From Gammaproteobacteria bacterium (GTDB lineage Bacteria; Pseudomonadota; Gammaproteobacteria; Steroidobacterales; Steroidobacteraceae): a DNA stretch of 42,359 nucleotides. A model generated the notes under the pieces. The model ran no database searches. It was given only the letters and a program-made list of their open reading frames with translations, and was not told where the DNA came from. Positions 1-42,359 of this stretch are shown piece after piece. The stretch spans positions 1 through 42,359 of the forward strand of contig DAHVQK010000033.1 of the NCBI GenBank assembly GCA_027317845.1, in the 5' to 3' direction. The translations under genes were made by a program, and so were the position numbers. Position 1 is the first letter of the stretch. Every line of letters begins with the position of its first letter.

Positions 1-2
1 TG

Positions 3-3629: not shown

Positions 3630-3735
3630 CGCCGGCAATGCCATGGCAACGTCCAACATACCGTCGTTTCCCGGAAACGCATTGCTGCATTCCCCGAGTG
3701 TCCGATTCGTTCCCGAAGTCGCCCATGGAGTCCTC

Positions 3736-4836: not shown

Positions 4837-4852
4837 CCCGGGAGACTCGAGG

Positions 4853-6816: not shown

Positions 6817-6829
6817 CCGGGAGGCCGCC

Positions 6830-7570: not shown

Positions 7571-7573
7571 CCT

Positions 7574-27432: not shown

Positions 27433-27860
27433 ACCTCAATCCGCGGCGCCACGAGGAGCCGGAGATCAACGTCGTTTCACTCATCGACGTCGTGCTGCTG
27501 CTGGTGGTGTTCTTCATGCTCTCGAGCAAGTTCACCGAGGAGGGGCGCCTGCAGGTGCGCCTGCCTCATGCGAGCGCCGTTCCGAGCGCCACCTCGCAGC
27601 CCGAGCCGCTGGTGGTCACCGTGACCCAGGGGGGCGATTATCTCGTCAACGGGCGGGAGCTCATCAATTCCCGTCCCGACACGCTGCGCTCGGCACTGAT
27701 CCAGCAGGCCGGCGCCGATCGCAACATGATCGTCACGATTCGCGCCGACGGGCGCGCGACCCAACAGTCCGTGGTCACGGCGATGGATGTGCTGGGTCAG
27801 CTGGGTTTCGTGAAGCTCGACATCGCCACGATCAAATCGCACGCGCAGGGCTCATCTTGA
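27429..27860 (+). CDS. exbD: ExbD/TolR-type protein
   Basis: The 143-residue partner of ExbB. It has a short cytoplasmic N-terminus, one membrane helix (about residues 16-34) with the functional Asp in SLIDVVLLLVVFFML, and a periplasmic domain ending with RATQQSVVTAMDVLGQLGFVKL. Both junctions are 4-base ATGA or similar overlaps, so exbB, exbD and msbA are probably translated in a coupled way. Confidence 0.94.
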   Translation: MNLNPRRHEEPEINVVSLIDVVLLLVVFFMLSSKFTEEGRLQVRLPHASAVPSATSQPEPLVVTVTQGGDYLVNGRELINSRPDTLRSALIQQAGADRNMIVTIRADGRATQQSVVTAMDVLGQLGFVKLDIATIKSHAQGSS

Positions 27861-29608
27861 ACCGAGGCACCGTGCCCCACACGGAGCAAGGCGCCGGCGC
27901 GACCTACCGGCGCCTGCTCGGGTACCTGAGTCCCCACAAGGGCGCGTTCGCCCTCGGCATCCTGGGCGGCGCGGTCTATTCGGCGAGCACGGCGAGCTTC
28001 ACGCTGCTCGCGAAGCTCCTCGGCGATGCGCTGAAGCATCCCGACCCGCGCATGATCGTGTGGATTCCCGTCGCGATGGTGGCGCTGTTTCTCGGCCGGG
28101 GGATCGGTAACTTCACCCAGACCTACTTCATGGGGTATGTCGGGCGGCGCGTGGTGAAGCGGTTCCGCTCCCAGGTCTTCCGGCGCGTGCTCGATCTGCC
28201 GGTGAGCTTCTTCGACCGTCACGCCGTCGGCGCGCTGTTGTCGCGTCTCACGTACAACAGCGAGCAGATCGGCCAGGCCTGCACCACCTCGGTGGTGATC
28301 CTGGTGCGCGCCGGACTCACCATCACCGCGCAGATCGCGTTGCTCCTGTGGCTCAATACGCGCCTCGCGCTGATCGCGCTCACCATGGGACCGCTCGCCG
28401 GCTGGATCGTGTCGGTCATCAACCGCCACTTCCGCCGCTATGGCCGGCGCATCCAGGACTCGATGGAGGATGTGACCCGGCTCGCCAAGGAGAGCTTCGA
28501 GTCCCCGCGTCTGGTGAAGGTCTACGGGGCGCAGGCGCACCTCGATGCGCAGTTCGAGACCGTCAACGAGCACAACCGGCGCTCGAACATGAAACTCATC
28601 CTCACCAACGGGCTCGCGAATCCCACCGTGCAGATGGTGACGGCCCTCGGCGGGGCGTTCGTGCTGGCGCTCGCGATCCGCGACACGGTGAAAGGACAGA
28701 TGAGCCCCGGCGATCTGATCGGGTTCTTCACCGCGCTCGGGACCATCGCCCAGCCGGTGCGCGAGTTCGTCAGCCAGTCGGGGCCCATCCAGCAGGGGAT
28801 CGCCGCGGCGCAAAGCCTGTTCGAGCTGCTCGATCAGCCGGGGGAGCCCGCAAGTGGCCGCCACCGCATCGAGCGCGTCCGCGGGGAAGTCGAATACCGC
28901 TCGGTTGGATTCTCCTACCCTCAGGGTCAGGGCGCGGCGCTGCGCGGCGTCTCGATCGAGGCGCCGGCGGGCTCGAGCATCGCCATCGTCGGCCGCTCGG
29001 GCAGCGGCAAATCGACGCTGGTGAGCCTGCTGCCGCGCTTCTACGAGCTCGACGCGGGCTCGATCCTCATCGACGGACGCGACATCCGCGAGTACGACCT
29101 CAAGTCCCTGCGCGAGCAGATCGCGGTGGTCACTCAGGATGTCACGCTGTTCGATGACACGATCCGCAACAACATCACGTTCGGGCGCGAGGTGCCGGAG
29201 GCGGCCGTGTTGCGTGTCGCGGAGGCTGCCCGCGTCCTCGAGTTCACCACGGGCCTGCCGCAGGGGCTCGATACGCTGGTCGGTGAGCGCGGCACGCTGC
29301 TCTCCGGTGGTCAGCGCCAGAGGATCGCGATCGCGCGGGCGCTGCTGAAGGATGCGCCCATCCTCATTCTCGATGAGGCCACCTCGGCGCTCGACACCGA
29401 GGCGGAGCGCCACATCCAGGCGGCGCTCGCCCACCTGATGCACAACCGCACCACCTTCGTCATCGCCCACCGGCTCTCGACCGTGGAGCAGGCCGATCGG
29501 ATCATCGTGCTCGATGCCGGCCAGGTGGCCGAAAGCGGCACGCATGCGGAGCTCCTCGAGCGCGCCGGCCTGTACGCGCAGCTGCACCGGCTGCAGTTCA
29601 GCGACTGA
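27857..29608 (+). CDS. msbA: Lipid A flippase MsbA
   Basis: MsbA is a homodimeric ABC exporter that flips the lipid A core to the periplasmic side of the inner membrane. The 583-residue half-transporter (E. coli 582) has six membrane helices in the first 320 residues, including FRSQVFRRVLDLPVSFFDRHAVGALLSRL. Its nucleotide-binding domain has Walker A GRSGSGKSTL, signature LLSGGQRQR, Walker B ILILDEATSALD and a switch His in IAHRLSTVEQAD. It is followed by lpxK, the classic msbA-lpxK pair. Confidence 0.97.
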   Translation: MNRGTVPHTEQGAGATYRRLLGYLSPHKGAFALGILGGAVYSASTASFTLLAKLLGDALKHPDPRMIVWIPVAMVALFLGRGIGNFTQTYFMGYVGRRVVKRFRSQVFRRVLDLPVSFFDRHAVGALLSRLTYNSEQIGQACTTSVVILVRAGLTITAQIALLLWLNTRLALIALTMGPLAGWIVSVINRHFRRYGRRIQDSMEDVTRLAKESFESPRLVKVYGAQAHLDAQFETVNEHNRRSNMKLILTNGLANPTVQMVTALGGAFVLALAIRDTVKGQMSPGDLIGFFTALGTIAQPVREFVSQSGPIQQGIAAAQSLFELLDQPGEPASGRHRIERVRGEVEYRSVGFSYPQGQGAALRGVSIEAPAGSSIAIVGRSGSGKSTLVSLLPRFYELDAGSILIDGRDIREYDLKSLREQIAVVTQDVTLFDDTIRNNITFGREVPEAAVLRVAEAARVLEFTTGLPQGLDTLVGERGTLLSGGQRQRIAIARALLKDAPILILDEATSALDTEAERHIQAALAHLMHNRTTFVIAHRLSTVEQADRIIVLDAGQVAESGTHAELLERAGLYAQLHRLQFSD

Positions 29609-29618
29609 ACGCCGAACG

Positions 29619-30668: not shown

Positions 30669-30837
30669 AATCCTCGCCTGCCCCATCTGCAAGGGCACGC
30701 TCATCTACCGGCGGGACGCCCAGGTGCTCGTGTGCCGCCTCGACCGGCTCGCCTATCCGATCCGCGACGGCGTGCCGGTGATGCTGGAGGAGGAGGCCCG
30801 CCAGCTCGCTGCCGACGATCCGCTTCTCGGGCGCTGA
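30649..30837 (+). CDS. Trm112/YcaR family small protein
   Basis: A 62-residue protein that starts at the ATG at 30649, inside the end of lpxK, with GGGAG eight bases upstream. It has the UPF0434/Trm112 pattern [16 protein letters not shown], with CPIC zinc-ribbon-like Cys residues, and [11 protein letters not shown]. The second Cys pair found in some homologues is reduced to a single Cys (VCRLD). Such proteins are routinely sandwiched between lpxK and kdsB. The role is unknown and may be partner binding or protein stabilisation. Confidence 0.9.
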
Positions 30838-30848
30838 GCGGGGGCCGG

Positions 30849-31598
30849 TTGTTTCACGTCGCCATTCCCGCCCGCGCCGCCTCGACCAGGCTTCCCGGCA
30901 AGGCGCTTGCGCTGTTGCGCGGCAAGCCGATGATCCAGTGGGTGTACGAGAAGGCGAGCGCTTCGGGCGCAGACGAGGTGCTGATCGCGACGGACGATCC
31001 GGCGATCGTGAGCGCCGCGCGCGCCTTCGGGGCCGGGGCGCGTCTGACTTCCGAGCGCCACGCCTCGGGCACCGATCGCATCGCCGAGCTTGCCACGCTC
31101 GAGCGCTGGCCGGATGAGGACATCGTGGTCAACGTGCAGGGCGATGAGCCGCTCATCCCGCCGGCCATCATCCGCCAGGTCGCCACGGTGTTGGAATCCC
31201 ACACGCAGGCATCGCTCGCCACGCTCGCCACGCCGATCGCATCGGCGGCGGAGTTGCTCGATCCCAACGTCGTGAAAGTCGTCTGCGACGAGCGTGGACG
31301 GGCGTTGTATTTCAGCCGCGCGCCGATTCCCTGGGATCGCGAATCGCCGGTGACCTCGGCCCATCCAAAGCTCTGCACGGGGGCGCGACGCCATGTGGGC
31401 ATCTACGCCTACCGGGTGCGGGCGCTCAAGCGCCTGGCCTCGCTCGAGCCCACCGCGCTTGAGCTGACCGAGAAGCTCGAGCAATTGCGTGCGCTCGGGC
31501 ACGGCATGACCATCCAGGTGGCCGATGCGGCGGAGCAGCCCGGCCCCGATGTCAATACTCCGCAGGACCTCGAGCGTGTGTCGGCGCTCATCGGTTGA
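30849..31598 (+). CDS. kdsB: CMP-Kdo synthetase KdsB
   Basis: KdsB activates 3-deoxy-D-manno-octulosonate with CTP for lipopolysaccharide core assembly. The family N-terminus FHVAIPARAASTRLPGKAL begins at a TTG at 30849, giving 249 residues (E. coli 248). Motifs include the nucleotide-binding ARxxSTRLPGK, IATDD, NVQGDEPLI and YFSRAPIPWDR, with HVGIYAYR and the C-terminal PGPDVNTPQDLERV. It starts 11 bases after the Trm112-like gene. Confidence 0.96.
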   Translation: MFHVAIPARAASTRLPGKALALLRGKPMIQWVYEKASASGADEVLIATDDPAIVSAARAFGAGARLTSERHASGTDRIAELATLERWPDEDIVVNVQGDEPLIPPAIIRQVATVLESHTQASLATLATPIASAAELLDPNVVKVVCDERGRALYFSRAPIPWDRESPVTSAHPKLCTGARRHVGIYAYRVRALKRLASLEPTALELTEKLEQLRALGHGMTIQVADAAEQPGPDVNTPQDLERVSALIG

Positions 31599-31756
31599 GT
31601 CGGCTGCGCGATGGACAGTGGCTTGAGGTTTCTTCAGGTTGGATCGCCTTGCGCGACCCGGTGGCAGGAACTTCGGTCCGGTCGGGGGCGTCAACCCGTT
31701 GTACCCGTGCGCGTTTTTTGCGCGAGAGGCCCACGGGCGGGGATACTAGGATCATG

Positions 31757-32323
31757 ATGCGTTTGCAGATACCGGCACTTCCTCGCGCCCGAGGTGTTTT
31801 GGGCGCGGTGGCTCTCGGGGCGATGCTTGTAGGCCTGGCGGGGTGCGCCACCGTGCCTCCCCAGCCGGCTCCCGTGTATCGCGTACCCCGGCCGGATACG
31901 ACCGTTTATGCCTATCCCACGCAGAACCAGTCGCGGCGGCAACAGGAGCGCGATCACTATGACTGCAGCCTGTGGGCGGTCCACGAGAGCGGCTTCGACC
32001 CGAGCGCCCCGGGCGTCCCGGTCTACGACCAGGTGACCGTCCAGGGGCCGCCGCCCGGCACCGATACCGCCATCGGGGCGGTGGCCGGCGCCGTGCTCGG
32101 CGCCGCGATCTCAGACCCCTGGGATCGGGGAGCCGGGGCGATCTTCGGTGCGCTCACCGGCGCCATGATCGGCAGCGCCGGTGATGCCGCCAATGCCCAG
32201 GCGAGCCAGCAGGGCATGAGCGCTCAGACCTACCAGGCGCAGCAGGCGATGGACGAGAAAGCGGGCCATTACCGCAGGGCCCTCAGCGCCTGCCTGGAAG
32301 CGCGTGGATACAGCGTAAAATAG
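31757..32323 (+). CDS. Glycine-zipper lipoprotein
   Basis: About 188 residues. The N-terminal signal peptide ends in the lipobox LAGC (Cys near residue 28), so it should be a lipoprotein. The mature part has a Pro-rich linker, a Gln/Arg-rich stretch with DHYDCSLWAVHESGFDPS, then a Gly/Ala zipper (AIGAVAGAVLGAAI and AGAIFGALTGAMIGSAGD) of the kind that inserts in membranes. It closes with HYRRALSACLEARGY. An ATG at 31754 is also possible, but AGGA spacing favours 31757. It follows kdsB by 158 bases that hold no recognised gene. Its role is unknown. Confidence 0.8.
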   Translation: MRLQIPALPRARGVLGAVALGAMLVGLAGCATVPPQPAPVYRVPRPDTTVYAYPTQNQSRRQQERDHYDCSLWAVHESGFDPSAPGVPVYDQVTVQGPPPGTDTAIGAVAGAVLGAAISDPWDRGAGAIFGALTGAMIGSAGDAANAQASQQGMSAQTYQAQQAMDEKAGHYRRALSACLEARGYSVK

Positions 32324-32327
32324 GCGC

Positions 32328-32393
32328 GTGAAGACCCGGATTCTGTTCGTCTGTCTCGGCAAAACAAGCCGACGTTACCCGCCCGTTCCCTAG
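32328..32393 (+). pseudogene. 5' remnant of low-molecular-weight protein tyrosine phosphatase gene
   Basis: GTG at 32328, five bases past the lipoprotein stop, reads MKTRILFVCLG, the start of low-molecular-weight protein tyrosine phosphatases up to the catalytic P-loop Cys and Leu-Gly. Family members continue with N-I-C-R-S-P. Here the sequence turns into KTSRRYPPVP and a stop. Host homology ends at about 32362. Homologues commonly sit beside kdsB in related genomes. This is read as the point where the phage-like element entered the gene. The short match (11 codons) is strong because it is the most conserved part of the family. Confidence 0.75.
32355..32362. other. Probable left attachment-site edge (attL)
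   Basis: The last bases compatible with the host phosphatase gene are CTCGGCAA (codons for L-G and the first two bases of Asn). Element DNA starts at or just before 32362. The full core cannot be defined without the right end, which lies beyond the window. Confidence 0.5.
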
Positions 32394-32416
32394 TTATCCC
32401 AAGTGTCTGATATTGT

Positions 32417-32432
32417 GGGGATTCACTTCCCC
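32417..32432. repeat. Small hairpin near the element end
   Basis: GGGGA-TTCACT-TCCCC forms a 5-base-pair stem, followed 12 bases later by a five-T run. It lies in the 210-base gap between the attachment site and the integrase. It could end transcripts entering from the host operon, but is weak. Confidence 0.3.
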
Positions 32433-32467
32433 GAGAGTTCCCTTTTTATACCTCTATTTCCCGCCCT

Positions 32468-32489
32468 TCTGATGACATGGTGATGACAT
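32468..32489 (-). repeat. 22-base site, copy A (two phased TGATGACAT units)
   Basis: Two TGATGACATG units start at 32470 and 32481, 11 bases apart (one helical turn). They lie between the attachment site and the integrase start. The same arrangement occurs in the opposite orientation at 37268-37289, with 21 of 22 bases identical. Position near the integrase suits an integrase arm site or a repressor operator. Confidence 0.6.
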
Positions 32490-32603
32490 GAGGAAGCGGG
32501 GAGCGTAAGCTACACAGCCGAAGACATACGAACAGGCGGGGCCGGAGGGTGCGTCAACACCCACCGACCCCTCACCACCACCAGCACATGAGAGGTGCCG
32601 GCA

Positions 32604-33803
32604 ATGGCTGCGAAGAACCTTACCAAGACCGTCGTCGAGAAGGCGACTTATCAGGCCGGCGGGCCCTCCCGCCAAGTCATTTGGGACGCTCGGCTGCGTG
32701 GTTTTGGCCTACGCCTGACCCCCGAGGGGGGCAAGCAGTACGTCCTCCTGTTCCGCGCGAACGGCCGCCAGCGGCTCATGAGCCTCGGCCCGGTTCAGGA
32801 CTTCAAGTCCCTCGATGAAGCCCGGGCGAAGGCGGAGAAGCTGCTGCACGGCCTGCGCCACGAGGGGATCGACCCGATGGCGGCCCGGGAGCGGCTGGCC
32901 GAGGCGCAGACGATGTGCGACCTCTGGACGGTCTACGAGCGCGACCACCTCGCCACCCTCAGCGGGAATACGAAGCGTGCTGTCACCAGCGCCTGGCGCG
33001 TGCACCTCGAGCCTGTCGTCGGTGCACTGAAGCCGGGCCAAGTGACGAAGGCGGATGTCATCCGCGTGCACGACCGGGCGACTGAGTGCGGCGGTGAATG
33101 CGTCGCCAATCGAGCGGTCCAGCGGCTGCGGGCAATGTTCGCATGGCTCTACGACCGGGCCGAGCAGCAGTTCCCCGCAGGCTGGCGAAACCCCGCCGTC
33201 GGGATCAAGCTGCACAGGGAGTCACCCCGCACGCACATCCTGGATACAGGTCAGATGCGCGCGCTCCTCGCGGCGCTCGACGGTGATGAGCACGTGTGGA
33301 CTCGTTCCTACGTGGCATTGCTGATGCTCACCGGAGCACGCAAGGAAGAAATCCGCCAACTTCGGTGGGACGCCATTGACCTCGAGCGGGGAGTGGCTCA
33401 CCTGAGCCAGACGAAGAACGGCAAGCCGTTCGAGCTGCCGCTCGTCCCGGAGGCTGTCACAGTCCTCCGGAGCATTCGGGCAGTAGCGGGTAATCCATAC
33501 GTCTTCCCTCAGGTGCGCGCGACACCCAAGCAGGTGGCCCCGCAACCCATGATCGAGCCGCGCGGGGCGTACAAGGCTGCATTGAAGCGCGCAGGACTGC
33601 CGGCCACGACCACCTTCCACGACCTGCGAAGGAGCTACGCGACGATGGCCGCTGTCCGGGGCGCGACCGCGGAGCAGATCGCTCGTGCGTTGAACAACAC
33701 CAGCAGCGTCGCGGCTCGCGTGTACATTCAGCTCGCCCAGGACGTGCAGCGCCGCATCGCGGAGCAGAACGCCAAGGCTCTCTTGCCGGGCCCGCAGGCG
33801 TGA
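32604..33803 (+). CDS. int: Tyrosine-type integrase
   Basis: A 399-residue site-specific recombinase expected to insert and excise the element. The N-terminal DUF4102-like arm-binding region (IWDARLRGFGLRLTPEGGKQYVLLFR) is followed by a core-binding domain (about residues 100-190) and the catalytic domain. Catalytic residues are R246 (TGAR), K271 (TKNG), H339 and R342 (HDLRRSYA) and nucleophile Y374 (ARVYIQL). The usual G-H/W pair before the Tyr is N364-N365. The ATG at 32604, with AGAGG eight bases upstream, is preferred to the GTG at 32595. It is coupled to the next gene by GTGA. Confidence 0.95.
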   Translation: MAAKNLTKTVVEKATYQAGGPSRQVIWDARLRGFGLRLTPEGGKQYVLLFRANGRQRLMSLGPVQDFKSLDEARAKAEKLLHGLRHEGIDPMAARERLAEAQTMCDLWTVYERDHLATLSGNTKRAVTSAWRVHLEPVVGALKPGQVTKADVIRVHDRATECGGECVANRAVQRLRAMFAWLYDRAEQQFPAGWRNPAVGIKLHRESPRTHILDTGQMRALLAALDGDEHVWTRSYVALLMLTGARKEEIRQLRWDAIDLERGVAHLSQTKNGKPFELPLVPEAVTVLRSIRAVAGNPYVFPQVRATPKQVAPQPMIEPRGAYKAALKRAGLPATTTFHDLRRSYATMAAVRGATAEQIARALNNTSSVAARVYIQLAQDVQRRIAEQNAKALLPGPQA

Positions 33804-34306
33804 GCAGTCGCGCGGCAACGAAGATGCGCGGGCGTCCCAAGAATCCGTGGACGTGGCGCGGCATGAAAGACGCCGCCGAACGGGATGCGGAGATAGTCTG
33901 CCAATGGAAGGTCCTCTACGACGCTGCCAAGGCAGAGGGCACCACTGATCGCGCGGCAACCGCGCAGGCGACAAAATCCCTCGCGGTGCGGCTCGGGGTC
34001 ACAGACCGCACGATCAGGACTGTGCGCGAACGTCACAAGGCGTCCGGGAGAGAGTTCCTACGCTTCGTCGAGGAGAACCGGTTCGCGCGGCGCGCGTTGG
34101 AGGATGAGCGCCGTGAAGGGCAGCCGCCAGCACCGCGTTCCATCGTCGATGAATTCTTCGACACTGCTGCCGGCCAAATGGTGATGCGGTGGCTGGAGGA
34201 GGGCGCCTCGGCCAAGGCGGAGAACGAGCGGCTCCGCATCGAGGTCGAGAAGCTGAAGAGGCGTGAGGTTGCCTGGAGGGACTTCCGCAGCAACTCGCGG
34301 AAGTGA
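33800..34306 (+). CDS. HTH and coiled-coil protein of the element
   Basis: A 168-residue protein coupled to the integrase stop. It has an N-terminal basic stretch (KMRGRPKNPWTW) and a helix-turn-helix-like segment (KSLAVRLGVTDRTIRTVRERHK, about residues 54-75). The C-terminal helix is strongly coiled-coil-like (ASAKAENERLRIEVEKLKRREVAW). No family is recognised. The coupling to integrase suggests a DNA-binding cofactor or regulator, but this is inference. Confidence 0.7.
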   Translation: MSSRAATKMRGRPKNPWTWRGMKDAAERDAEIVCQWKVLYDAAKAEGTTDRAATAQATKSLAVRLGVTDRTIRTVRERHKASGREFLRFVEENRFARRALEDERREGQPPAPRSIVDEFFDTAAGQMVMRWLEEGASAKAENERLRIEVEKLKRREVAWRDFRSNSRK

Positions 34307-34311
34307 AATTC

Positions 34312-34361
34312 CAGCCGAGACGCAGCATCGGCTGATTTCCGCTTCCGTAAACACGGAAATC
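34312..34361. promoter_or_regulatory. Two adjacent inverted repeats before the AlpA-like gene
   Basis: CAGCCGA-N9-TCGGCTG (34312-34334) is directly followed, sharing one base, by GATTTCCG-N12-CGGAAATC (34334-34361). They fill the 136-base gap between the HTH/coiled-coil gene and the AlpA-like gene. The first may be a weak hairpin terminator. The second looks like a dyad operator. No strong promoter hexamers are seen downstream. Confidence 0.45.
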
Positions 34362-34442
34362 CCCTCCCTGCGCAGCCCTCCTTGCTGATTCGGGCCTGCT
34401 CTCCCCATAACATTCCTGCACCTTCCCCACGTGAGGTGCAGT

Positions 34443-34649
34443 ATGAAGAGGAAAACCAACGCCGCGGCTGAGCGCATCGGCATGCGCGGCAAGACTTTCG
34501 CAAACTGGCGCAGCGCAGGCGGCGGTCCGCCCTATTACAAGGTCGGGGGCACCGTTCTCTACGACGACAACGAGGTGGACGCCTGGTTGGCCGAGCGCCG
34601 CCGCGGCGCCATTCCGACTTCCGTCTGCAATGTTCGGGAGGCTGCGTAG
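34443..34649 (+). CDS. AlpA/excisionase-like winged HTH protein
   Basis: A 68-residue protein of the MerR-like HTH_17/AlpA type: RIGMRGKTFANWRSAGGGPPYYKVGGTVLYDDNEVDAWL is the classic layout (HTH, wing with GxxVxY, then DDxEVDAWL). Such proteins act as excisionases or as activators of integrase or replication genes. The ATG at 34443 has GAGG six bases upstream; a GTG at 34431 would lie on top of that site. Its stop overlaps the next start by one base. Confidence 0.82.
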   Translation: MKRKTNAAAERIGMRGKTFANWRSAGGGPPYYKVGGTVLYDDNEVDAWLAERRRGAIPTSVCNVREAA

Positions 34650-35323
34650 TGGAGACGCAGCTTGCTGCCCCGGGGAAGGCGCCCCCGGGAACGGCTGTCC
34701 TTCTAGCTGCGAAGGTCGACTCGTACGAGGCCGGCGTCGGGATTGTAACGGCGTCGATGCTCCCCATTCCAGCGGCGCTGACCGCGGACACGGTCAGGTC
34801 CGAGGGCATCGCTGCCGAGATCAAGGCGCTCCACTGCTTGGCGCGCTACGAGTATGCCCGGCACGCGATCCGTTGCGGCGAACTGCTCCTTCAACAGAAG
34901 GAGCGAATGCGGCATGGCGGGTTCCAGAAGTGGATTGAAGACAAGTGCGAGTTCGCCTACTCGACGGCCGCGCGCTACATGGCAGCCGCTCGGGCAAATC
35001 TCTCACGGGGAGAGATTTCAGATATCAGCGCCCGTCTGTTGCCTTCGGGGCGCAAGCCGCAGCGTCAGAAGGTGGCGCGCAAGGTCGCCGCGCCGGCGCC
35101 GATTACCGCATCCGCCTCGGTCGGGATGACCGCCGACCAGGCCGTCGAGATCCTGCGCCGCCAACCGAACTCAGCGCGGCACTACGCGCGACTAATCCAG
35201 CGCTACCGGGCGGAGAAGAAGGCCCTCGAGACGGGCCGCCGCGCGTTCGACAACACGGTGCAGTCCGTCCTGCGCGCCGCCCGCAAGATCGAGGTGCCGA
35301 AGATCGAGGAGGCGCCCGAGTGA
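34649..35323 (+). CDS. DUF3102-like protein
   Basis: A 224-residue protein with a GTG start. The central region resembles DUF3102: ARHAIRCGELLLQQKERMRHGGFQKWIEDKCEFAYSTAARYMAAA (about residues 70-115). That pattern is common in phage and integrative element proteins near replication genes. The C-terminus is basic with long helices. No catalytic motif is seen. It is coupled to the AlpA-like gene before it and the initiator-like gene after it. Confidence 0.7.
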   Translation: METQLAAPGKAPPGTAVLLAAKVDSYEAGVGIVTASMLPIPAALTADTVRSEGIAAEIKALHCLARYEYARHAIRCGELLLQQKERMRHGGFQKWIEDKCEFAYSTAARYMAAARANLSRGEISDISARLLPSGRKPQRQKVARKVAAPAPITASASVGMTADQAVEILRRQPNSARHYARLIQRYRAEKKALETGRRAFDNTVQSVLRAARKIEVPKIEEAPE

Positions 35324-36084
35324 GCGGCTACACCCCGCTGTTCAGCTCCCTGACGACCGGCACCTTGTGCGGTCGCTGGCCCGACATCGGGCTCTGGTGC
35401 GTCGTACTTTCGCTCGCTGATCGGCATGGCATTGTCGACGTCACTCCCCAGTACATCGCGAGCGTGAGCGGCCTGCCGATCGACGAGGTCGTCGCCGCCA
35501 TGAAGCGCTTCTGCGAACCCGATGCTGGAAGCCGCACCGCGGCGGAGGAGGGTCGGCGCCTCGAGCTGCTGGATCCTGAGCGCCGTGAATGGGGCTGGCG
35601 CATCGTCAATCACTCCGCGTATCGCGAGCGAGCCCGCCTCGAGGCGAGGTCCGCTCGGGACATCGAGAGCGGCAAGAACGCTAAGCGTATGCGTGACCGC
35701 CGAAAATCACACGAGACCACCGGCGACCGCCGCAGACCCCCTCTCAAACCAAACCAAACCAAACAAAACCAGACGGAGGAGAAGATCCCCCCTATCCCCC
35801 CTCCGGGGGGCGACCTGGCCGCCGGCCTCGATCTGGATGCCTGGAACCGATGGGAGGGCTATCGCCGAGAGATCCGGAAGCCGCTGAAGGCTGCATCGCT
35901 CAAAGCTGCCCAGCGCCAGCTCGCGAGCTTCGGGAGCGATCAATCCGCCGTGGTCGAGCAATCCATCGCCAGCGGCTGGCAGGGACTCTTCCCCCTCAAG
36001 AGCAATGGCCCGTCGCGTTCGGCCGCAGAGCCGGGGCCTGGCTGGCGCCCGACCGAGAATGACGAAGGGAGCCTGTTCGCATGA
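35320..36084 (+). CDS. Phage replication initiator-like protein
   Basis: A 254-residue protein from the GTG at 35320 (GTGA overlap). The N-terminal half resembles the winged-helix region of phage O-type or element replication proteins (YTPLFSSLTTGTLCGRWPDIGLWCVVLSLADRHGIVDVTP is split by function: fold about residues 3-105). A low-complexity linker (PNQTKQNQTEEK near residue 145) is encoded by tandem AAACC repeats. The C-terminal part (LDAWNRWEGYRREIRKP) is a conserved tail domain. The role is inferred from this architecture and from the loader-like gene that follows. Confidence 0.65.
   Translation: MSGYTPLFSSLTTGTLCGRWPDIGLWCVVLSLADRHGIVDVTPQYIASVSGLPIDEVVAAMKRFCEPDAGSRTAAEEGRRLELLDPERREWGWRIVNHSAYRERARLEARSARDIESGKNAKRMRDRRKSHETTGDRRRPPLKPNQTKQNQTEEKIPPIPPPGGDLAAGLDLDAWNRWEGYRREIRKPLKAASLKAAQRQLASFGSDQSAVVEQSIASGWQGLFPLKSNGPSRSAAEPGPGWRPTENDEGSLFA
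35746..35770 (+). repeat. Tandem AAACC/AAACA repeats inside the initiator gene
   Basis: Five consecutive 5-base units (AAACC three times, AAACA, AAACC) form a relatively AT-rich island in GC-rich DNA, followed by C-runs around 35787-35806. As in lambda, where the origin lies within gene O, this is a candidate replication origin. It could also be only a repetitive linker. Confidence 0.5.
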
Positions 36085-36611
36085 TGCCCACCGAGTTTGA
36101 GCAATTTTCCGCCGCGCTGAAGGTGCTGGAACAAGTTTTCGGGAAGAAGACCGACGATGGCCTGACCAAGCTGTACTGGACGGCCCTCCGTGATCTTCCG
36201 CTCGAGGCTGTGAAGGCCGGAATCGCGCGGCACGTGCGCTACGGCAAGTTCTTCCCCAAGCCGGCCGAGCTCCGTCGTGCGGATGAGAGGCCGCGCAATG
36301 ACCTGACCCTCAGCGCCGACAGCCGCCGCTCGGTGCATATCGCTCTCATGGAGCTGGCGGAACAGGACCCGGCAGCGAACGGACACCTCAAGGGCGCTCT
36401 TGCGCGCAATGCGGCGTCGTGGCGCGAGCTGCGGGCCCAGGATCCGGACTTCACGGATCTCGAGTACACGCTGGCTCAGGTCGGTCGGATCCTCGCCGTC
36501 GAGCCGCCGGACTCGCCGCAGTATGCCGAAGCGCTCGAGGTCGATCGCCGGCTGCGGACCGAGCGTGAATCTCTTCTCGAGGCCCGCTACGCCCGGAGGA
36601 CGGCCGCGTGA
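36081..36611 (+). CDS. Replication loader-like phage protein
   Basis: A 176-residue protein coupled to the initiator-like gene (ATGA overlap). The N-terminus, LEQVFGKKTDDGLTKLYWTALRDLPLEAVKAGIARHVRYGKFFPKPAELRR (residues 16-66, cited here as a region), is a pattern seen in phage proteins encoded after initiators. The key features are F-G-K-K, L-Y-W-x-A-L and F-F-P-x-P-A-E-L-R. Some such proteins load or modulate the replicative helicase. No ATPase motif is present, so a loader of the DnaC type is excluded. Confidence 0.6.
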   Translation: MMPTEFEQFSAALKVLEQVFGKKTDDGLTKLYWTALRDLPLEAVKAGIARHVRYGKFFPKPAELRRADERPRNDLTLSADSRRSVHIALMELAEQDPAANGHLKGALARNAASWRELRAQDPDFTDLEYTLAQVGRILAVEPPDSPQYAEALEVDRRLRTERESLLEARYARRTAA

Positions 36612-37186
36612 CGGAGAGCACCCGGAAGAGGGGGTCCAGCAAGGGCGGAAAGGCACCCCGAGCAAACATGCGGGACCACGCGCGCGCGCCGGTTGCGCGA
36701 GACGCGAAGGGTCACTTTCTCCCTGGTGTGTCAGGTAATCCTGACGGCAGGCCGAAGGAGGAACGCGAGCTGCGGGAGCTGGCGCGGAGTTTCGGACCGG
36801 AAGCGATTCAACGCATCGTGCACCTGATGCGGAACGCCGAGGACGAGCGCGTCCAGCTTGGCGCGGCCGAGGCGCTGTTGACGCGCGGCTATGGTCGGCC
36901 GGCCGAGGCTGCCAGCGGGCCGCTGGTGGCGATCCAGGTCGGCGCAGGCGCGACTGCGGCCATTACTGACGCTCACGAGGCCGCCCGCGTCTATCGCGAT
37001 CTGATGAGCGGCGCTATTGACGTGGGGGGCGTGACATTCGCGCAGCCGGCCCTTCTGGCGCCTGTCGAGGCGGAAGTTTCCGCCATCCCCTCCCCCCGGG
37101 GCGGCGGGGCGAAATCCGACCCCCGCGTCGAGGCGGTCGACACCGCGGGCGAGCGGCGCGAGACGTGGGAGGAGCTGGCGAAATGA
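36608..37186 (+). CDS. DUF5681-containing phage protein
   Basis: A 192-residue protein with the DUF5681 signature GHFLPGVSGNPDGRPK (residues 35-50), followed by an armadillo-like helical region (RVQLGAAEALLTRGYGRP). The Ala/Pro-rich C-terminus is variable. Proteins with this signature are usual in prophages, often beside terminase genes, yet no terminase follows here. It is coupled to the previous gene by an ATGA-type overlap (GTGA at 36608). Confidence 0.75.
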   Translation: MTESTRKRGSSKGGKAPRANMRDHARAPVARDAKGHFLPGVSGNPDGRPKEERELRELARSFGPEAIQRIVHLMRNAEDERVQLGAAEALLTRGYGRPAEAASGPLVAIQVGAGATAAITDAHEAARVYRDLMSGAIDVGGVTFAQPALLAPVEAEVSAIPSPRGGGAKSDPRVEAVDTAGERRETWEELAK

Positions 37187-37267
37187 GCGTCAGATGCTTC
37201 ACGGACATACGCGCGACGTCTGTAACTACCTGTCTGTTCACTGGTTTTCCCTAAAAGGCACTTCGCT

Positions 37268-37289
37268 ATGTCATCAACATGTCATCAGA
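37268..37289 (+). repeat. 22-base site, copy B (inverted relative to copy A)
   Basis: ATGTCATCA, one base, then CATGTCATCAGA. The sequence is the reverse complement of copy A at 32468-32489 with one mismatch, again with an 11-base period. It overlaps the start codon of the next small gene, so a bound protein could repress its expression. Nothing else is seen in the gap 37187-37267 apart from an AAAAGG that could be its ribosome-binding site. Confidence 0.6.
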
Positions 37290-37510
37290 GCGCCTACTGG
37301 TCGACCTTGGTTGCTGGCGCTTACGACCGCCGCGCGCAGCAGTATCGACCGGCCGGCGCGGGTCTCGAGTCGGAGATCCGCAGGCTCAGCGAGTGCGGTC
37401 TGATGCCGCTCGATATCGCAACTGCCCTGCGCCTCGCGCCGGACTACGTGCTCAACGTGCTGACGGAGCCGCGTGCAATCAGCGCAGCGGCGCGGAGGGA
37501 GTGCGCGTGA
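37268..37510 (+). CDS. Small element protein, 80 residues
   Basis: An open frame from an ATG that lies within repeat copy B, with AAAAGG nine bases upstream. The second half, LESEIRRLSECGLMPLDIATALRLAPDYVLNVL, looks like a helix-turn-helix (residues 35-67). Its stop overlaps the next GTG start. It is plausibly a small DNA-binding regulator, but no family is recognised. Confidence 0.5.
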   Translation: MSSTCHQSAYWSTLVAGAYDRRAQQYRPAGAGLESEIRRLSECGLMPLDIATALRLAPDYVLNVLTEPRAISAAARRECA

Positions 37511-37638
37511 ACCCTCGCCGCGCCGAGATGGAGATCGCCGCTCCTGGCGCGTTTTATCGCGTTTCAGGTCGGGGCGCAGTCGCACTAATGACAGGCGACA
37601 CGCGGGGACGCGTTTTCCTGTGGAGGGTTGCCGCATGA
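37507..37638 (+). CDS. Tiny coupled protein, 43 residues
   Basis: Starts with a GTG overlapping the previous stop and ends overlapping the next ATG. The product NPRRAEMEIAAPGAFYRV with a short beta-rich remainder has no recognised family. Overlap signatures on both sides support it being translated. Confidence 0.4.
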   Translation: MNPRRAEMEIAAPGAFYRVSGRGAVALMTGDTRGRVFLWRVAA

Positions 37639-37760
37639 CCGAGATCCGTGACCTCCTGGAGCGCGCTCAGTTCGATCTGGAGCGCGGATGGGTCGAGGCG
37701 GCGATGGACTGCATCGGCCGGGCGCTGCGGCTCCTGAGCGACCAGGAGGGCCGCTCATGA
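37635..37760 (+). CDS. Tiny coupled helical protein, 41 residues
   Basis: ATGA overlaps at both ends. The product is a single predicted amphipathic helix pair (MTEIRDLLERAQFDLERG, then WVEAAMDCIGRALRLL). It shares its first four residues with the next tiny protein. Function unknown. Confidence 0.45.
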   Translation: MTEIRDLLERAQFDLERGWVEAAMDCIGRALRLLSDQEGRS

Positions 37761-37849
37761 CCGAGATTGCCGCTGCTCGCGCCGCCATCGACTTCCTGAT
37801 CCTGCTGCTACGTAGCAACACCCATAAAACCGTTCTGAGGAAAACATGA
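37757..37849 (+). CDS. Tiny coupled membrane-like peptide, 30 residues
   Basis: ATGA overlaps at both ends. The product MTEIAAARAAIDFLILLLRS plus a basic tail has a short hydrophobic segment (about residues 10-18) and a positive C-terminus, as in small membrane peptides. Whether it is translated is uncertain; the overlaps favour it. Confidence 0.35.
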   Translation: MTEIAAARAAIDFLILLLRSNTHKTVLRKT

Positions 37850-38571
37850 TGACCGATTCCCCCGCTACTCTCCGCGCCGCGTACCGCGGTGCCCGTCAAA
37901 CTTGCGACCAGGCGCAGCGCCAGCACCAGGCTGACGTTCAGGCGCTTGAGCTCTCCCGTCAGAAGCTCGCCACTGCCCAGACCGACCTGGACGCGCTGGC
38001 TCAGCAGGACGCCGAGGCGATCGCGCGCCACGCCCGCCGGCTCGAGCAGCAGACCCGAGACGGGAAGAGCGGGCCGATCCCGCAGCTCGTACCGAGCGAG
38101 AAGCACCTGGCGGCTGAGATTGCGGCCCGGCGCACGCACGCCGCGGCCACCGCGATGGTCGAGAACATCGAGACCGCTGAGCGCGCCTCTGCTGAGGCGC
38201 TTCGGGTGGCTGAGCAGGCGGTTGAAGCCTCTCGCAATGCCGTCATCCGTGCCCGGTGCAATGAGCTGACCGAGGAGCTTCGGGCCCTTCGCGCGCGCGA
38301 GATGTCGCTGGTGGCGACGCTGATGGCCGTCCGAGACGTTGCTCCCCGGAACTTCGTTCAGGGACCGGACACTCGCGCCGAGCTGGATTACCCGGCGCCT
38401 CGGCCGACACCTTCGACTGTGGGGAGTCTCCATTTGGTCGCAACCATCAACGACGCCCGCGGCGACCGCACTCTGCTCGATCAGGGAGCACAGATGTGGC
38501 GGGAATTCGTCGCCGAACTCGAGGCGACGCCCGGTGTTGAGCCTGGACAGCTCGCGCAGGAGGCTGCCTAA
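37846..38571 (+). CDS. Coiled-coil element protein, 241 residues
   Basis: Long Ala/Glu/Gln/Arg-rich helices cover residues 10-160 (for example QRQHQADVQALELSRQKLA and AERASAEALRVAEQAVEASR), then a loosely structured C-terminus. GAGG lies about seven bases before the first of two adjacent ATGs. It could be a scaffold-like, structural or tail-assembly protein, but there is no family match I can name. It ends before a 262-base gap. Confidence 0.65.
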   Translation: MMTDSPATLRAAYRGARQTCDQAQRQHQADVQALELSRQKLATAQTDLDALAQQDAEAIARHARRLEQQTRDGKSGPIPQLVPSEKHLAAEIAARRTHAAATAMVENIETAERASAEALRVAEQAVEASRNAVIRARCNELTEELRALRAREMSLVATLMAVRDVAPRNFVQGPDTRAELDYPAPRPTPSTVGSLHLVATINDARGDRTLLDQGAQMWREFVAELEATPGVEPGQLAQEAA

Positions 38572-38627
38572 GCATTGCCATAGCGAGCGGTCCGGGGTGG
38601 CGGCGCTTAATCCTTGGCGTTGTCATC

Positions 38628-38837
38628 ATGGGCGCGGATCGCTCGTGCCGCCTCAGCGATGAGCGGCGGGACAACAGCGAAAGTGTCCCAAACAACACGC
38701 TGCGCTGGCAGGGGCTACTCCAGTTCCGTGGTCAGCAGGGCGCTCTGCAACTCCTGGGGCGCCCGCCCACCTATTCCCGCGCGTCGCATATCGCGGCGCG
38801 CTCATTTCTGACACACAACGTGAGGTGTTTCGCATGA
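38628..38837 (+). CDS. Doubtful 69-residue reading frame
   Basis: The 262-base stretch 38572-38833 has no convincing gene. This frame is the best candidate because its stop overlaps the next start as ATGA, like its neighbours. The protein has no recognisable domain and no clear ribosome-binding site is seen. A small inverted repeat (GCCGC and GCGGC around 38649-38669) lies inside it. It may instead be a leader region for the next gene. Confidence 0.25.
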   Translation: MGADRSCRLSDERRDNSESVPNNTLRWQGLLQFRGQQGALQLLGRPPTYSRASHIAARSFLTHNVRCFA

Positions 38838-39715
38838 AACGCAATATTCTCAGCTTCGATCGCCGCGTGGTTTGCGGTGTACGGACGGTCGATGGACCGA
38901 TCTACGCGCCGCAGCCGGTGAGCGATGCGGAAATCGAGCGCCGCGTCGCCGCGGCCCTGCGTCGGCGCACGCAGGACGACCTGCTCAACGCGGTCAATCC
39001 CGGGAAGGTCCTGGCACTCGGGAAAGTCTGGACTGGATCATTGGCACCGGAGATCGACGCGCGCCTCGACGCGATTCGGCCGCTCGTGACGGGCTTCACG
39101 TCCGGCCGCGTGCTGAATGCAGAGCCGGCATCGCCTTCTCTGGACCTTGGCAGGAAGTGGGTCGGGGATGTCGTGGGGATGCTGCGCGCTGCTGCCCGTG
39201 ACAGCGAAACGGGCGAGGGCGAGAAGGTTGACCTCACAGAGGTGGCGCGGAGCGCTTCGCATCTCGAGCGCGCCTTCGAGCGCGGCAATCCCGACCTCAT
39301 CACGGCCGCGTATGGAGCGCTCCGCCGCGACTTCGATGGGGTGCGCCAGCGTCACGCCGACGACCGTCGCCGCACTGCGGATGCGGCGGTTGCCGATCGC
39401 GGAGCCCGGGAAGCGCAGGCCACGCGAAGCCTGATCCAGGACATCAACTCGCGCAACCGAGCCTTCTACAGCGGCCGGGACGCGAACGGCACCGTGGTCG
39501 GGACGCGCGATTTTGCGCAGGACATGCCGGGCGCGTCGGGGGGCAAGTCGTTCTACTCGGGCGGTCAGCCCCGGCCGGTTACGGGCTCGCCTTTCATCAA
39601 CGGGCGTGCGCTTCGCTTCGGCGGCACGCCGACCCCCTCCATTGCGGAGATCAACCGACGCAATGCTCAGTTTTGGGCCTCGCGCAACGGCAACGGGCCC
39701 AAGGATGCCGCCTGA
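38834..39715 (+). CDS. Unknown element protein, 293 residues
   Basis: From the ATG at 38834 (GTGAGGTG a few bases upstream) the protein starts MKRNILSFDRRVVCGVRT. It has a helical middle (residues 30-210) and a Gly/Ser/Asn-rich C-terminus with two repeats of a motif near INSRNRAFYSGR and INRRNAQFWASR. No family is recognised. Position before the tape measure suggests a virion or tail-assembly role, which is only inference. Confidence 0.65.
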   Translation: MKRNILSFDRRVVCGVRTVDGPIYAPQPVSDAEIERRVAAALRRRTQDDLLNAVNPGKVLALGKVWTGSLAPEIDARLDAIRPLVTGFTSGRVLNAEPASPSLDLGRKWVGDVVGMLRAAARDSETGEGEKVDLTEVARSASHLERAFERGNPDLITAAYGALRRDFDGVRQRHADDRRRTADAAVADRGAREAQATRSLIQDINSRNRAFYSGRDANGTVVGTRDFAQDMPGASGGKSFYSGGQPRPVTGSPFINGRALRFGGTPTPSIAEINRRNAQFWASRNGNGPKDAA

Positions 39716-39775
39716 GCTTCGGGCGCCTCGGCTCTCGGGGCGCCGATCCTCTCCCGCACACTGACAGGAGCATCT

Positions 39776-41527
39776 ATGGAGTCGAATGTCATCAGAGAAT
39801 TCTTGGTGGCGTTGGGGTTCAAGCTGGACCGGCCTGCGCTGCAAAATTTCGAGCAGGGCATCCACAAGGCGACTCGAGCGGCCCTCGGGCTCGCCACGGC
39901 TGTCGAGGGCATGGCGCTCACCGTGGGCCTGGGCATCGCACGCTTCTCCAGCAACCTCGAGCAGCTCTACTTCGCTGCGCAGCGCACGGGTTCCTCTGCG
40001 ACGGCATTGAAGGCGTTCCAGCGCACCGCGCAGAACTTCGGCGCGTCCGCTGGCGACGCGCTCGGGTCTGTCGAAGGGCTCGCGCAGGCAATGCGCATGA
40101 ATCCGGGCAACGTCGGGTTGCTCGAGGGCCTCGGCGTCCATCTGGAGCGCACCAAGAACGGTTCCTATGACGCCACCGACGCGCTGGTGCAGTTCGGCAA
40201 TCGCATGCGCGCCTTGGGCTACTTCAAGCCGGGCGAGTTCTACATGGCCGAGCAGTACGCGGGGATGCTCGGGATCAACGAGCGCACGCTCCTCGCGCTG
40301 CGCAATGGGAACTTCAATCGCGAGTTCGCCCGCATGCAGCGGGAGATGCACGGCCACGGCTTCCAGAAGGCGGCGCAGGACGCGCATCGCTTCATGGTCT
40401 CGCTGCGCAACCTGGAAACGCAGTTGGAGGTGTTCGGGGCACAGGTCGAGGACGCGATCCAGCGTAAGCTCGGGGTGAATCTCAAGCACCTGAGCGCGTG
40501 GCTCCAGCAGCACGGGCCGCAGATCGCCGGCCAGCTCGTCACCGCGGCCACCCAGCTCTATCAGGTGGCGGAATGGATCAGCCGGGCTGTCGCCTGGCTC
40601 GTGCCGAAATTCGAGTCGCTGAATCGCGAGACGCACGGGTGGGCAGGCAAGCTGCTCGGGCTCTACACGATCCTGCGTCTATTCGGTGGGCTTGAGGTCA
40701 TATCCGGCGTGCTCCGCCTGGGCGCTGCTTTCGGACTCTTGGGTGCCCGCATCCTGGGCGCGCGAGCGGCCGCCGAGGGTGCCTCGGCCATCTCGGCCGG
40801 CGGCCTGGCGGGCGCAGCGGTCCCTGGCATCGGCCTCGGCATTCTTGCCGGATGGGGCGTCGATAAGCTGTTCCCGAATAACTGGCTGGCCGAGGCCGGC
40901 CGCTGGATCGGCGGCAACCTCTACGACGCGACGCACCGCGACCAGACGGCCATGAACTATTTCACGAGCCAGGGGTGGGCGCCGTGGCAGGCGGCCGGGA
41001 TCGTGGCGAATCTCGAGAAGGAGAGCGGCCTGGCGGCCGGGGCGACCGGCGACAACGGGCAAGCCTACGGCATCGCGCAATGGCACCCGGATCGGCAGGC
41101 TGAGTTCGCGCGCATCTTCGGGAAGAACATCCGCGCCTCGAGCTACATGGATCAGCTCGCCTTCGTGAATTGGGAGCTGCGCCATAGTCAAGGCGCGGCC
41201 GGGCGCCTCCTGTCGCACGCGAAGACGGCGGCGGCTGCCGGCAGCATCGTCTCTCGCTTCTACGAGCGCCCGGCCCATGCCACACAGGAAGCGCAGGCGC
41301 GCGCATTGACGGCGCATCGGATCTGGCACGGGCTCGTCCGACAAGCTCCCTATCTCGCGCAGGTGCAGGCCCGCTACGGGGCGGCAGGCGCACCGACTAT
41401 CAATCAGGAAACGAACATCCACGTGCACGCCAGCCGCGATGCACTCGGGACCGCCCGCAGTGTGTCCGGAGAGCAGCAGCGGGTGAACGCGGACATGGTG
41501 CGAAACTTCGCGACAGCGGTGCGCTGA
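39776..41527 (+). CDS. Phage tail tape-measure-like protein with lysozyme domain
   Basis: A 583-residue protein. Residues 1-110 resemble the start of tail tape-measure proteins (EFLVALGFKLDRPALQNFEQG, then a hydrophobic segment around 40-60). The middle is helical with a Gly/Ala-rich hydrophobic region (about residues 295-365). Residues about 392-505 match the phage tail lysozyme fold (Phage_lysozyme2): FTSQGWAPWQAAGIVANLEKES with the catalytic-type Glu, then GQAYGIAQWHPDR. It probably sets tail length and helps cross the peptidoglycan. An AGGAG ribosome-binding site precedes the ATG. Confidence 0.85.
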   Translation: MESNVIREFLVALGFKLDRPALQNFEQGIHKATRAALGLATAVEGMALTVGLGIARFSSNLEQLYFAAQRTGSSATALKAFQRTAQNFGASAGDALGSVEGLAQAMRMNPGNVGLLEGLGVHLERTKNGSYDATDALVQFGNRMRALGYFKPGEFYMAEQYAGMLGINERTLLALRNGNFNREFARMQREMHGHGFQKAAQDAHRFMVSLRNLETQLEVFGAQVEDAIQRKLGVNLKHLSAWLQQHGPQIAGQLVTAATQLYQVAEWISRAVAWLVPKFESLNRETHGWAGKLLGLYTILRLFGGLEVISGVLRLGAAFGLLGARILGARAAAEGASAISAGGLAGAAVPGIGLGILAGWGVDKLFPNNWLAEAGRWIGGNLYDATHRDQTAMNYFTSQGWAPWQAAGIVANLEKESGLAAGATGDNGQAYGIAQWHPDRQAEFARIFGKNIRASSYMDQLAFVNWELRHSQGAAGRLLSHAKTAAAAGSIVSRFYERPAHATQEAQARALTAHRIWHGLVRQAPYLAQVQARYGAAGAPTINQETNIHVHASRDALGTARSVSGEQQRVNADMVRNFATAVR

Positions 41528-41829
41528 TGAATGCTGTGTCCATCCTGAGCCTAGAGCCCTGGGTCTGCGACGTTGCGGATTGCCTCTTGTGCGAGCGCGT
41601 CCTCCCGGCTGGCACGGCGTGTCACGAGAGTCCGACTCCAGAGGGCGGCGCTCTCCGATATCGCCTATGCCCGGCGTGCGCGTCCGCGACCGTGTACGCC
41701 ACGTTGATGGGAGGAGCCGTTCAACAGCGACTCGAGGCCCAAATGCTCGAGCGGATCCGCCTCATCGGGTTCGAGATGGCGATGCAAGCAAACCTCATGG
41801 CGCGAGCCGAGACCGGGGTCCTTCAATGA
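41527..41829 (+). CDS. Cys-rich zinc-ribbon-like element protein
   Basis: A 100-residue protein whose ATG shares one base with the tape-measure stop. Cys residues occur as CDVADCLLC and CPAC, about 30 residues apart with one more Cys between, a plausible zinc-binding set. The C-terminus is an amphipathic helix. No family is recognised. Placement between tape measure and baseplate genes suggests a tail role, or a regulator coupled to late genes. Confidence 0.7.
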   Translation: MNAVSILSLEPWVCDVADCLLCERVLPAGTACHESPTPEGGALRYRLCPACASATVYATLMGGAVQQRLEAQMLERIRLIGFEMAMQANLMARAETGVLQ

Positions 41830-42167
41830 AGGAAGTCATCGATGCGTCTGACGCAATCAGTCTGCTCGCCGGCCAGGGCGGCTTCCGCAACGTCTGGCCT
41901 CGGGCGCTCTACGCGACCGAAATTGAGCTCATCGTCCAGCGAGCCGTTGCGGCGAAGGCAAATTCTGGTCTCACAGCTCGGCAGTTTCGCGACCTCAGAG
42001 GGGACGCCCTGCGCGCATTCGCCAGGCGGCACGGTCTGAAGTTTCTCGAGGTGCGACTTGCGCAGGCGCTCGCCGACCTGACTTGGGCGATGCGCCATAC
42101 GCACCGCCTCAGTGCTCGGGCCGCGCGCGCACGTAAACCATTCCATGCACCTGGTGAATTGCAATGA
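41826..42167 (+). CDS. Unknown tail-region protein, 113 residues
   Basis: Starts at the ATG at 41826 (ATGA overlap upstream) and ends overlapping the next start. The protein is mostly helical and basic (RQFRDLRGDALRAFARRHGLKF), with a C-terminal Arg/Ala-rich tail. No family is recognised. Its place between tape-measure and baseplate genes hints at a tail chaperone or connector. Longer upstream frames overlap the Cys-rich gene and are rejected. Confidence 0.65.
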   Translation: MKEVIDASDAISLLAGQGGFRNVWPRALYATEIELIVQRAVAAKANSGLTARQFRDLRGDALRAFARRHGLKFLEVRLAQALADLTWAMRHTHRLSARAARARKPFHAPGELQ

Positions 42168-42359
42168 CTGCTCAGTATCTCCGTTCGCTCAGCTTGGTCG
42201 TGGCGGACTCGAGCGGGGAGGGGATTGACCTCTCGAACCTGAGAGTCCGTTTCCACGTGAGGCGGGGTGACACGCAGACACCCAACTCCATGAACGCGCG
42301 CGTCTATAACCTCTCAGCCGCCACCGCCGCACAGATCGAGAACGAGTTCACGCAGATCG
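42164..42359 (+). CDS. Phage baseplate hub-like protein, 5' part
   Basis: Begins at an ATGA overlap and runs off the window after 65 residues. The start MTAQYLRSLSLVVADSSGEG, then LRVRFHVRRGDTQTPNSMNARVYNLSAAT, is typical of baseplate or hub proteins of contractile-tailed prophages. Together with the tape measure this marks a real tail module. The truncation is only the window edge. Confidence 0.75.
   Translation, partial: MTAQYLRSLSLVVADSSGEGIDLSNLRVRFHVRRGDTQTPNSMNARVYNLSAATAAQIENEFTQI

Follow-up and report, generated by a model that had tools for sequence, protein, structure and literature searches.

A prophage that interrupts the start of a gene for a low-molecular-weight protein tyrosine phosphatase and probably supplies a replacement start

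The window, the whole stretch of 42,359 nucleotides that was analysed, is the entire contig C156 (ending at 42359) of the draft genome G000, which comprises 1.90 Mb in 158 contigs and is 62.87% complete. It contains host genes that are followed by the left 10 kb of a prophage, and the two are joined near the start of a gene for a low-molecular-weight protein tyrosine phosphatase (LMW-PTP). The features around this junction are:

27857..29608, + strand: msbA (lipid A export ABC transporter), on the host side of the left junction (NCBIfam TIGR02203, 667 bits, cut-off 602)
30846..31598, + strand: kdsB, on the host side (NCBIfam TIGR00466, 252 bits, cut-off 155)
31754..32323, + strand: glycine-zipper lipoprotein-like gene, directly upstream of LMW-PTP (Pfam Rick_17kDa_Anti, 5.6e-10; "lipoprotein" is a label only)
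32328..32393, + strand: left stump of LMW-PTP with native GTG, MKTRILFVCLG, then phage-encoded KTSRRYPPVP and a stop
32346..32362, + strand: attL core TTCGTCTGTCTCGGCAA, 17 bp identical to the attR core at C122:3340-3356, minus strand
32363..42359 (contig end), + strand: left 10 kb of the prophage, with phage families and no alignment to the genome G066 past 32362
32470..32489, + strand: paired repeat TGATGACATGG TGATGACAT with an 11-bp period, proposed arm-type integrase site
32595..33803, + strand: tyrosine integrase with arm-binding domain (Pfam, PHROG)
34431..34649, + strand: small helix-turn-helix protein, candidate excisionase (PHROG excisionase and regulator, 2.8e-7)
37268..37287, - strand: third copy of the paired repeat, inverted and internal, with a counterpart in a second element, L220
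39776..41527, + strand: tail tape-measure protein with tail lysozyme domain (PHROG tape measure 3.3e-49, Pfam Phage_lysozyme2 1e-24)

The frame at 32328-32393 consists of 21 codons from a GTG start located 4 nt after the stop of the lipoprotein-like gene, and its translation, VKTRILFVCLGKTSRRYPPVP*, matches the LMW-PTP N terminus through LFVCLG and departs from it after GGCAA, at the position where N-I-C-R-S-P is expected. Since the 17-bp core encodes F-V-C-L-G plus the first two bases of the following codon, it spans the catalytic-cysteine codon, in a stretch of the gene with hardly any variation. This codon, TGT at 32352-32354, falls inside the repeat and in this family encodes the catalytic Cys. 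An exact search of the 1.9 Mb draft genome placed the 17-mer at two positions, 32346-32362 and on contig C122, and three further places were found at up to 2 mismatches, each with 2. The initial annotation had described an LMW-PTP start broken off at its P-loop, an integrase about 240 bases past the junction and a direct repeat, CTCGGCAA. The break was recovered as described, and the integrase frame opens at 32595 with its first ATG at 32604. The direct repeat is longer than described, namely 17 bp if exact, or 24 bp with one mismatch, counted from 32339. A tRNA was ruled out as the attachment site since there is none in the window, and a scan for sigma-70-like promoters at 31500-32700 gave no match. 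Between the paired repeat and the integrase, 14 nt at 32522-32535 form an inverted near-copy of the attL core (93% relative to 32343-32356), which lies largely within an alignment gap in L220.

The empty site is present in an uninterrupted relative, G066, in which the lipoprotein-like gene and LMW-PTP (93% and 95% identical to those of G000, respectively) are contiguous and the native GTG is present. Window positions 26909-32362 aligned by blastn to G066 positions 1-5457 at 95.4% identity; the alignment ran exactly to the final base of the core, and none extended beyond 32362 into the element. The break in the phosphatase is thus no chance match. On the other side, the reverse strand of C122 aligned by blastn at 168-984 to G066 5434-6251 (92.8%) and at 964-3530 to G066 6321-8874 (94.6%). 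Both flanks are thereby placed on G066, where the two alignments overlap by 24 bp that include the core, and this overlap is the duplicated attachment site. With both junctions and the empty site identified, the phage-like element lies within LMW-PTP at its P-loop, as had been suggested.

The right junction came from a Pfam search for LMW-PTP in the G000 genome, which gave 3 matches. Two of these, L002 (C114) and L003 (C32), are arsenate-reductase-like paralogues, each adjoining what we take from the sequences to be an ArsR-like and an ACR3-like gene, and were rejected as the interrupted gene on the basis of sequences and neighbours. The third is located on the minus strand of C122 (3530 bp), 168 bp from the contig end, with these features on the gene's strand:

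C122 102-121: paired repeat, in phage-side DNA
C122 from 109: ATG-led frame MMMTSKSAEFMKAKENRRIQ, phage-supplied leader of 20 codons
C122 175-191: attR core, 17 bp, followed by the rest of LMW-PTP, intact to its stop

The order on this strand is paired repeat, 53 bp, core, intact LMW-PTP and a convergent rne-like gene, which we take from its sequence to be the end of rne. The far end of the element, which the initial annotation had proposed to look for, is therefore represented by phage-side DNA, the same core and the remainder of LMW-PTP; the lack of a phosphatase 3' part at this end had been named as grounds for abandoning the interruption, and C122 carries that part. Of the two outcomes foreseen for the gene, the one in which the far end gives a new 5' end was recovered as an open frame. 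The element supplies a replacement start and N-terminal codons in frame (MMMTSKSAEFMKAKENRRIQ-ILFVCLGNICRSP...), and a Shine-Dalgarno-like stretch lies ahead of the phage ATG. Because the phage side gives both this ribosome-site-like stretch and a 20-codon in-frame ATG leader, the lysogen has an intact hybrid gene. The junctions are on different contigs (C156 and C122), no contig spans the element, and its right end is represented by only about 167 bp; a sigma-70-like promoter scan of the C122 stretch that includes these bases gave no match.

The hybrid contains both hallmarks of the LMW-PTP family, the C(X)5R(S/T) P-loop and the D-P general acid motif, and in 13 aligned sequences neither the P-loop (C25 L G N I C R31 S) nor the D142-P-Y-Y motif varied. 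A total of 45 PDB sequences matched the hybrid at <=1e-10 (best 2.6e-43). The alignments to these relatives began between residues 6 and 17 (mostly 14-17) of the query, 179 residues that started just past the third leader Met, which places the conserved fold almost wholly beyond the leader. A structural model built from the 13 sequences had a mean pLDDT of 89.3 and a pTM of 0.85, with values below pLDDT 50 in residues 1-3, 6-14 and 178-182; the leader was of low confidence and the first core strand began at residue 18.

When IMG/VR was scanned with the paired repeat TGATGACATGNTGATGACAT, one contig was obtained, L220. Its first 69 bp are flank and lead into GTGAAGATCTTGTTCGTGTGTCTCGGCAA, after which the sequence differs; the paired repeat occupies 205-224, and the integrase encoded at 329-1546 shares 60% identity with that of the window. 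The gap from core to paired repeat is 106 bp in L220 versus 107 bp in the window. In a blastn comparison of the first 110 bases of L220 with the loci, the matches at E <0.05 among those listed (at most 40) began at 65-80 and ended at 98-101, and most of them were LMW-PTP 5' ends, while six pieces with E above 1 among the matches listed lay elsewhere in the flank; the 69-bp flank names no host. The downstream genes differ from those in the window: L220 encodes a replication protein of the D5/DnaB type and, with a score below cut-off, a terminase-like protein. L220 is a different prophage whose left end abuts an LMW-PTP start at these same codons. It is known from its left end, so that restoration of the 5' end is shown for one element only, that of G000.

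At up to 3 mismatches, the paired repeat was found in three places in the draft genome, all of them in the element. The internal inverted copies are located about 4.9 kb from the core in the window (37268-37287, - strand) and about 4.4 kb from it in L220 (4546-4565, - strand, with 2 mismatches), with 0.00 copies expected by chance in either source. No core-like sequence was seen by eye beside these copies.

We also examined LMW-PTP starts in the genus. The search matched 50 of the 58 genomes (own included) with 60 matches in all, of which the 10 weakest (paralogues or fragment) were dropped, leaving 50 loci from 48 genomes. At 46 of these, the first codon of I/V-LFVC was preceded within 5 codons by an ATG, GTG or TTG. 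The four exceptions were G000 itself, G069, G070 and G072. In G072 there is an ATG 11 codons upstream with an apparent lipoprotein-like stop close behind it, suggesting that this is a case of start-site drift. The leaders of the remaining three are of equal length:

G000: MMMTSKSAEFMKAKENRRIQ
G070: MAMTSTDDISEKARENRQNR
G069: MTMTAAQADRGALGQGGHFR

To quantify the similarity, we counted the 90 bases before the first codon of I/V-LFVC. G070 had 49 and G069 had 42 of the 90 anchored bases in common with the G000 phage right end, and for each of them 0 of 2000 shuffles reached as high a count. Among the other 47 loci, p was <0.05 in four (G072 0.0095, G021 0.027, G025 0.042, G002 0.043). With 60 bases instead, p was <0.05 in three of 27 others (G025 0.0095, G036 0.022, G022 0.039), which belong to one clade and have native starts. 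Many loci were compared, and p values below 0.05 like those of the other loci can therefore arise.

The paired repeat occurred at 24 places at up to 3 mismatches in the 58 genomes, versus 1 for a reversed control pattern. Five places remained at up to 2 mismatches: the three in the G000 element, the LMW-PTP start of G070 (2 mismatches) and one elsewhere in G034. The bases just before the start, by reading of the sequences, are GAAGGTGA in G000, GGAGGTGA in G070 and GAGGAGA in G069; since the first two directly precede the start, the repeat and the ribosome site overlap in G000 and G070. In a tree of the LMW-PTP genes (49 of the 50, with a short row omitted), G000, G070 and G069 each had a native-start sister (G066, G003 and G028, respectively). 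Strongly supported branches force three changes, with one gain followed by losses also possible according to a warning from the tool.

We conclude from these comparisons that the leaders in G070 and G069 are probably relics of lost integrated elements, with G069 as the weaker case. If they are relics the element is gone, since there was no integrase match in the spacers between the lipoprotein-like gene and LMW-PTP and none at 1e-50 in either genome. The alternative is that both leaders arose by drift of the native start site, and G072 illustrates that a start 11 codons upstream can arise while the lipoprotein-like stop is still near. Drift would also agree with the spacers of G070 and G069, in which neither a left stump nor an integrase match was seen and which, besides the G070 repeat, gave only scattered short matches to the window in blastn and tblastx, and with G069, where the repeat was not found at up to 3 mismatches. 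It accounts poorly for leaders that equal the phage leader in length (20 codons) and share 47-54% of its bases, against shuffle means of 25-28%, and for the repeat retained in G070, with one other place of that quality outside G000 in the 58 genomes. On balance we regard drift as rather unlikely.

Across loci of the genus (for example L062, L107, L108, L100, L114 and L113) the spacer varies in length, being 4 nt in G066 and reaching about 22 kb in G029, with other genes in it. We searched 17 stretches from 12 genomes (G070, G003, G069, G014, G028, G029, G008, G067, G031, G022, G001 and G063) with 13 integrase queries, 11 of which were the longest open frame of an integrase locus, taken unchecked, and obtained no match at 1e-3 in the spacers of these genomes. 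The spacers of G014, G008 and G067 are split between contigs and were partly seen, and stretches from G023, G025 and G033 lay outside the search. The other spacer insertions were rejected as elements, having no integrase match at 1e-3 and native starts. Since the native start was kept in those genomes apart from G069 and G070, these spacers were read as other host rearrangements.

Taken together, we consider it highly probable that a temperate phage entered the 5' end of LMW-PTP by site-specific tyrosine-recombinase exchange, giving an intact hybrid gene. The host site has the order msbA, kdsB, lipoprotein-like gene and LMW-PTP, facing a convergent rne-like gene, and the phage end carries its own in-frame copy of the core, led by a Shine-Dalgarno-like sequence and the 20-codon ATG leader. 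The integrase would catalyse the exchange at the 17-bp core and presumably bind the repeat pair TGATGACATGN(x2), which lies on both sides of the core with an 11-bp period as a likely arm site, the right-side pair overlapping the start region of the leader. Integration has stranded the native start at the left as a 21-codon stump and fused the phage leader in frame to the rest of LMW-PTP on the right, giving the intact hybrid gene. Translation would begin at the phage ATG, and excision should restore the native gene. Control of the phosphatase level by lysogeny is possible.

The second outcome foreseen in the initial annotation was that lysogeny inactivates the phosphatase and that excision serves as the on-switch (active lysogeny), for which one could cite the severed native start and the negative promoter scan ahead of the hybrid gene in the C122 stretch. 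This is not supported: the hybrid frame is open and retains the catalytic motifs, its model is of high confidence outside the leader and tail, it has a phage ATG and a ribosome-site-like sequence, and two related species (G070 and G069) have such a leader in place of the native start codon, all of which makes a shut-off very improbable. It is likewise very improbable that C122 belongs elsewhere than at the far end of the element, whether through origin in another strain, a binning error or an upstream part that is ordinary host DNA: no contig of the 158-contig draft joins C156 and C122, but the upstream part of C122 ends at the shared core and has the paired repeat that is otherwise confined to the element in this genome, and the two flanks match G066 at about 95% and 93-95% identity, lying collinear and adjacent there.

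An extension of the integration model that we hold only tentatively, and think may well be wrong, is that a lineage of integrases uses the catalytic-cysteine codons of LMW-PTP as its attachment site, that its phage site carries a translational leader whose ribosome site and start codon are overlapped by the arm site, that Int may, depending on its occupancy, repress or expose phosphatase translation, and that at least two further species kept the leader and lost the element. If the leader did stay after the loss of the element, the 5' end of a housekeeping gene would have been lastingly replaced several times.

Prophages and genomic islands in dusA provide a close parallel in kind of insertion: they are integrase-borne, target a conserved housekeeping gene at its 5' end, have semiconserved short direct repeats of 21 bp, supply replacement 5' sequence that the authors judged able to restore the protein, and have promoter-like sequence before and after insertion (Farrugia et al. 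2015, PMC4482086). The LMW-PTP element likewise is integrase-borne and shares the short direct repeats, the 5'-end insertion and the replacement 5' sequence, whereas its repeat is 17 bp instead of 21 bp and its promoter scan was negative. It also differs in its target and in a core that covers the codon of a catalytic residue; with LMW-PTP as its target, the integrase falls outside the dusA-specific family, for which the target is dusA. SXT supplies a new start for prfC, the gene in which Hochhut and Waldor reportedly placed the SXT/R391 elements in 1999. The SXT/R391 integrative conjugative elements in prfC have a tyrosine integrase, use the 5' end of a conserved gene and have nearly identical attP and attB (PMC2791158). 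These three traits are shared by the LMW-PTP element, which differs in being a phage instead of a conjugative element and in using LMW-PTP instead of prfC. For prophage PhiM247 in msrA of Lactobacillus crispatus, the attachment site likewise takes in the 5' end of a protein-coding gene, in another gene and another host and with attachment sites of 138-139 bp (PMC10763512). The phosphatase mentioned in that paper belongs to an exopolysaccharide locus and was ruled out as an attachment site. No report of LMW-PTP as an attachment site was found in the literature searched, mostly without subscription journals.

The LMW-PTP case is, on its sequence features, apparently of the dusA/prfC type of 5'-end-replacing integration, at a different gene. 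It adds the LMW-PTP P-loop, supported by the empty site, both junctions and the second element, to the protein-coding attachment sites in genes whose 5' ends are replaced by mobile elements. If the leaders in G070 and G069 are relics, lysogeny permanently alters a core gene in its start and control region, even once the phage has been lost, and such changes could be searched for in other genomes by the absence of the native start.

Integrases this close to that of the window (Phage_integrase PF00589, 7.1e-21, 75.2 bits; Arm-DNA-bind_3 PF13356, 1.3e-13, 51.3 bits; both above cut-off) are otherwise rare. Some match at E<=0.001 was found in 48 of 60 genomes (own included), where, among the matches listed, the best full-length one outside the element was 34% identical and short partial ones reached 41%. 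Two of 396 order-level genomes (own included) passed 1e-50, the own genome and one at 31% identity, and the own genome alone passed 1e-60 among 369 at class level (own included). A profile scan of viral contigs returned the L220 contig again and one 27% match; a single-protein scan of viral contigs with the integrase returned nothing, so that L220 was reached only through the paired repeat, and a scan of viral contigs with the right-end repeat variant gave 0 matches. Among annotated phages, 92 records matched the integrase (best-ranked 28.7% identity). Two candidates for further LMW-PTP insertions were rejected. The integrase relative L119 lies beside a gene that we read as that of an aspartokinase. 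Among 80 named LMW-PTP loci, kept among the matches listed for 582 relatives and with flanks of up to 5 kb, some much less, one had an integrase-like match in its flank, L123 of Allochromatium palmeri, in which LMW-PTP has its own start and the recombinase is presumably integron-like, judged from its sequence.

The small protein at 34431..34649 matched Pfam HTH_17 with 25.4 bits, under the cut-off of 27. No capsid or large-terminase gene was recognised in the 10 kb, in which positions 36608-39715 lie between a DUF5681 protein and the tape-measure gene; either the gene order is unusual or these genes are divergent. The phage structural genes seen in the element are those for the tape measure and the tail lysozyme. 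The tape-measure protein at 39776-41527 has a full-length relative in Phage WC36-2 (OL791266.1, an unannotated record) at 37.3% identity and another at 40% in an IMG/VR contig, L221-L225 being tape-measure relatives.
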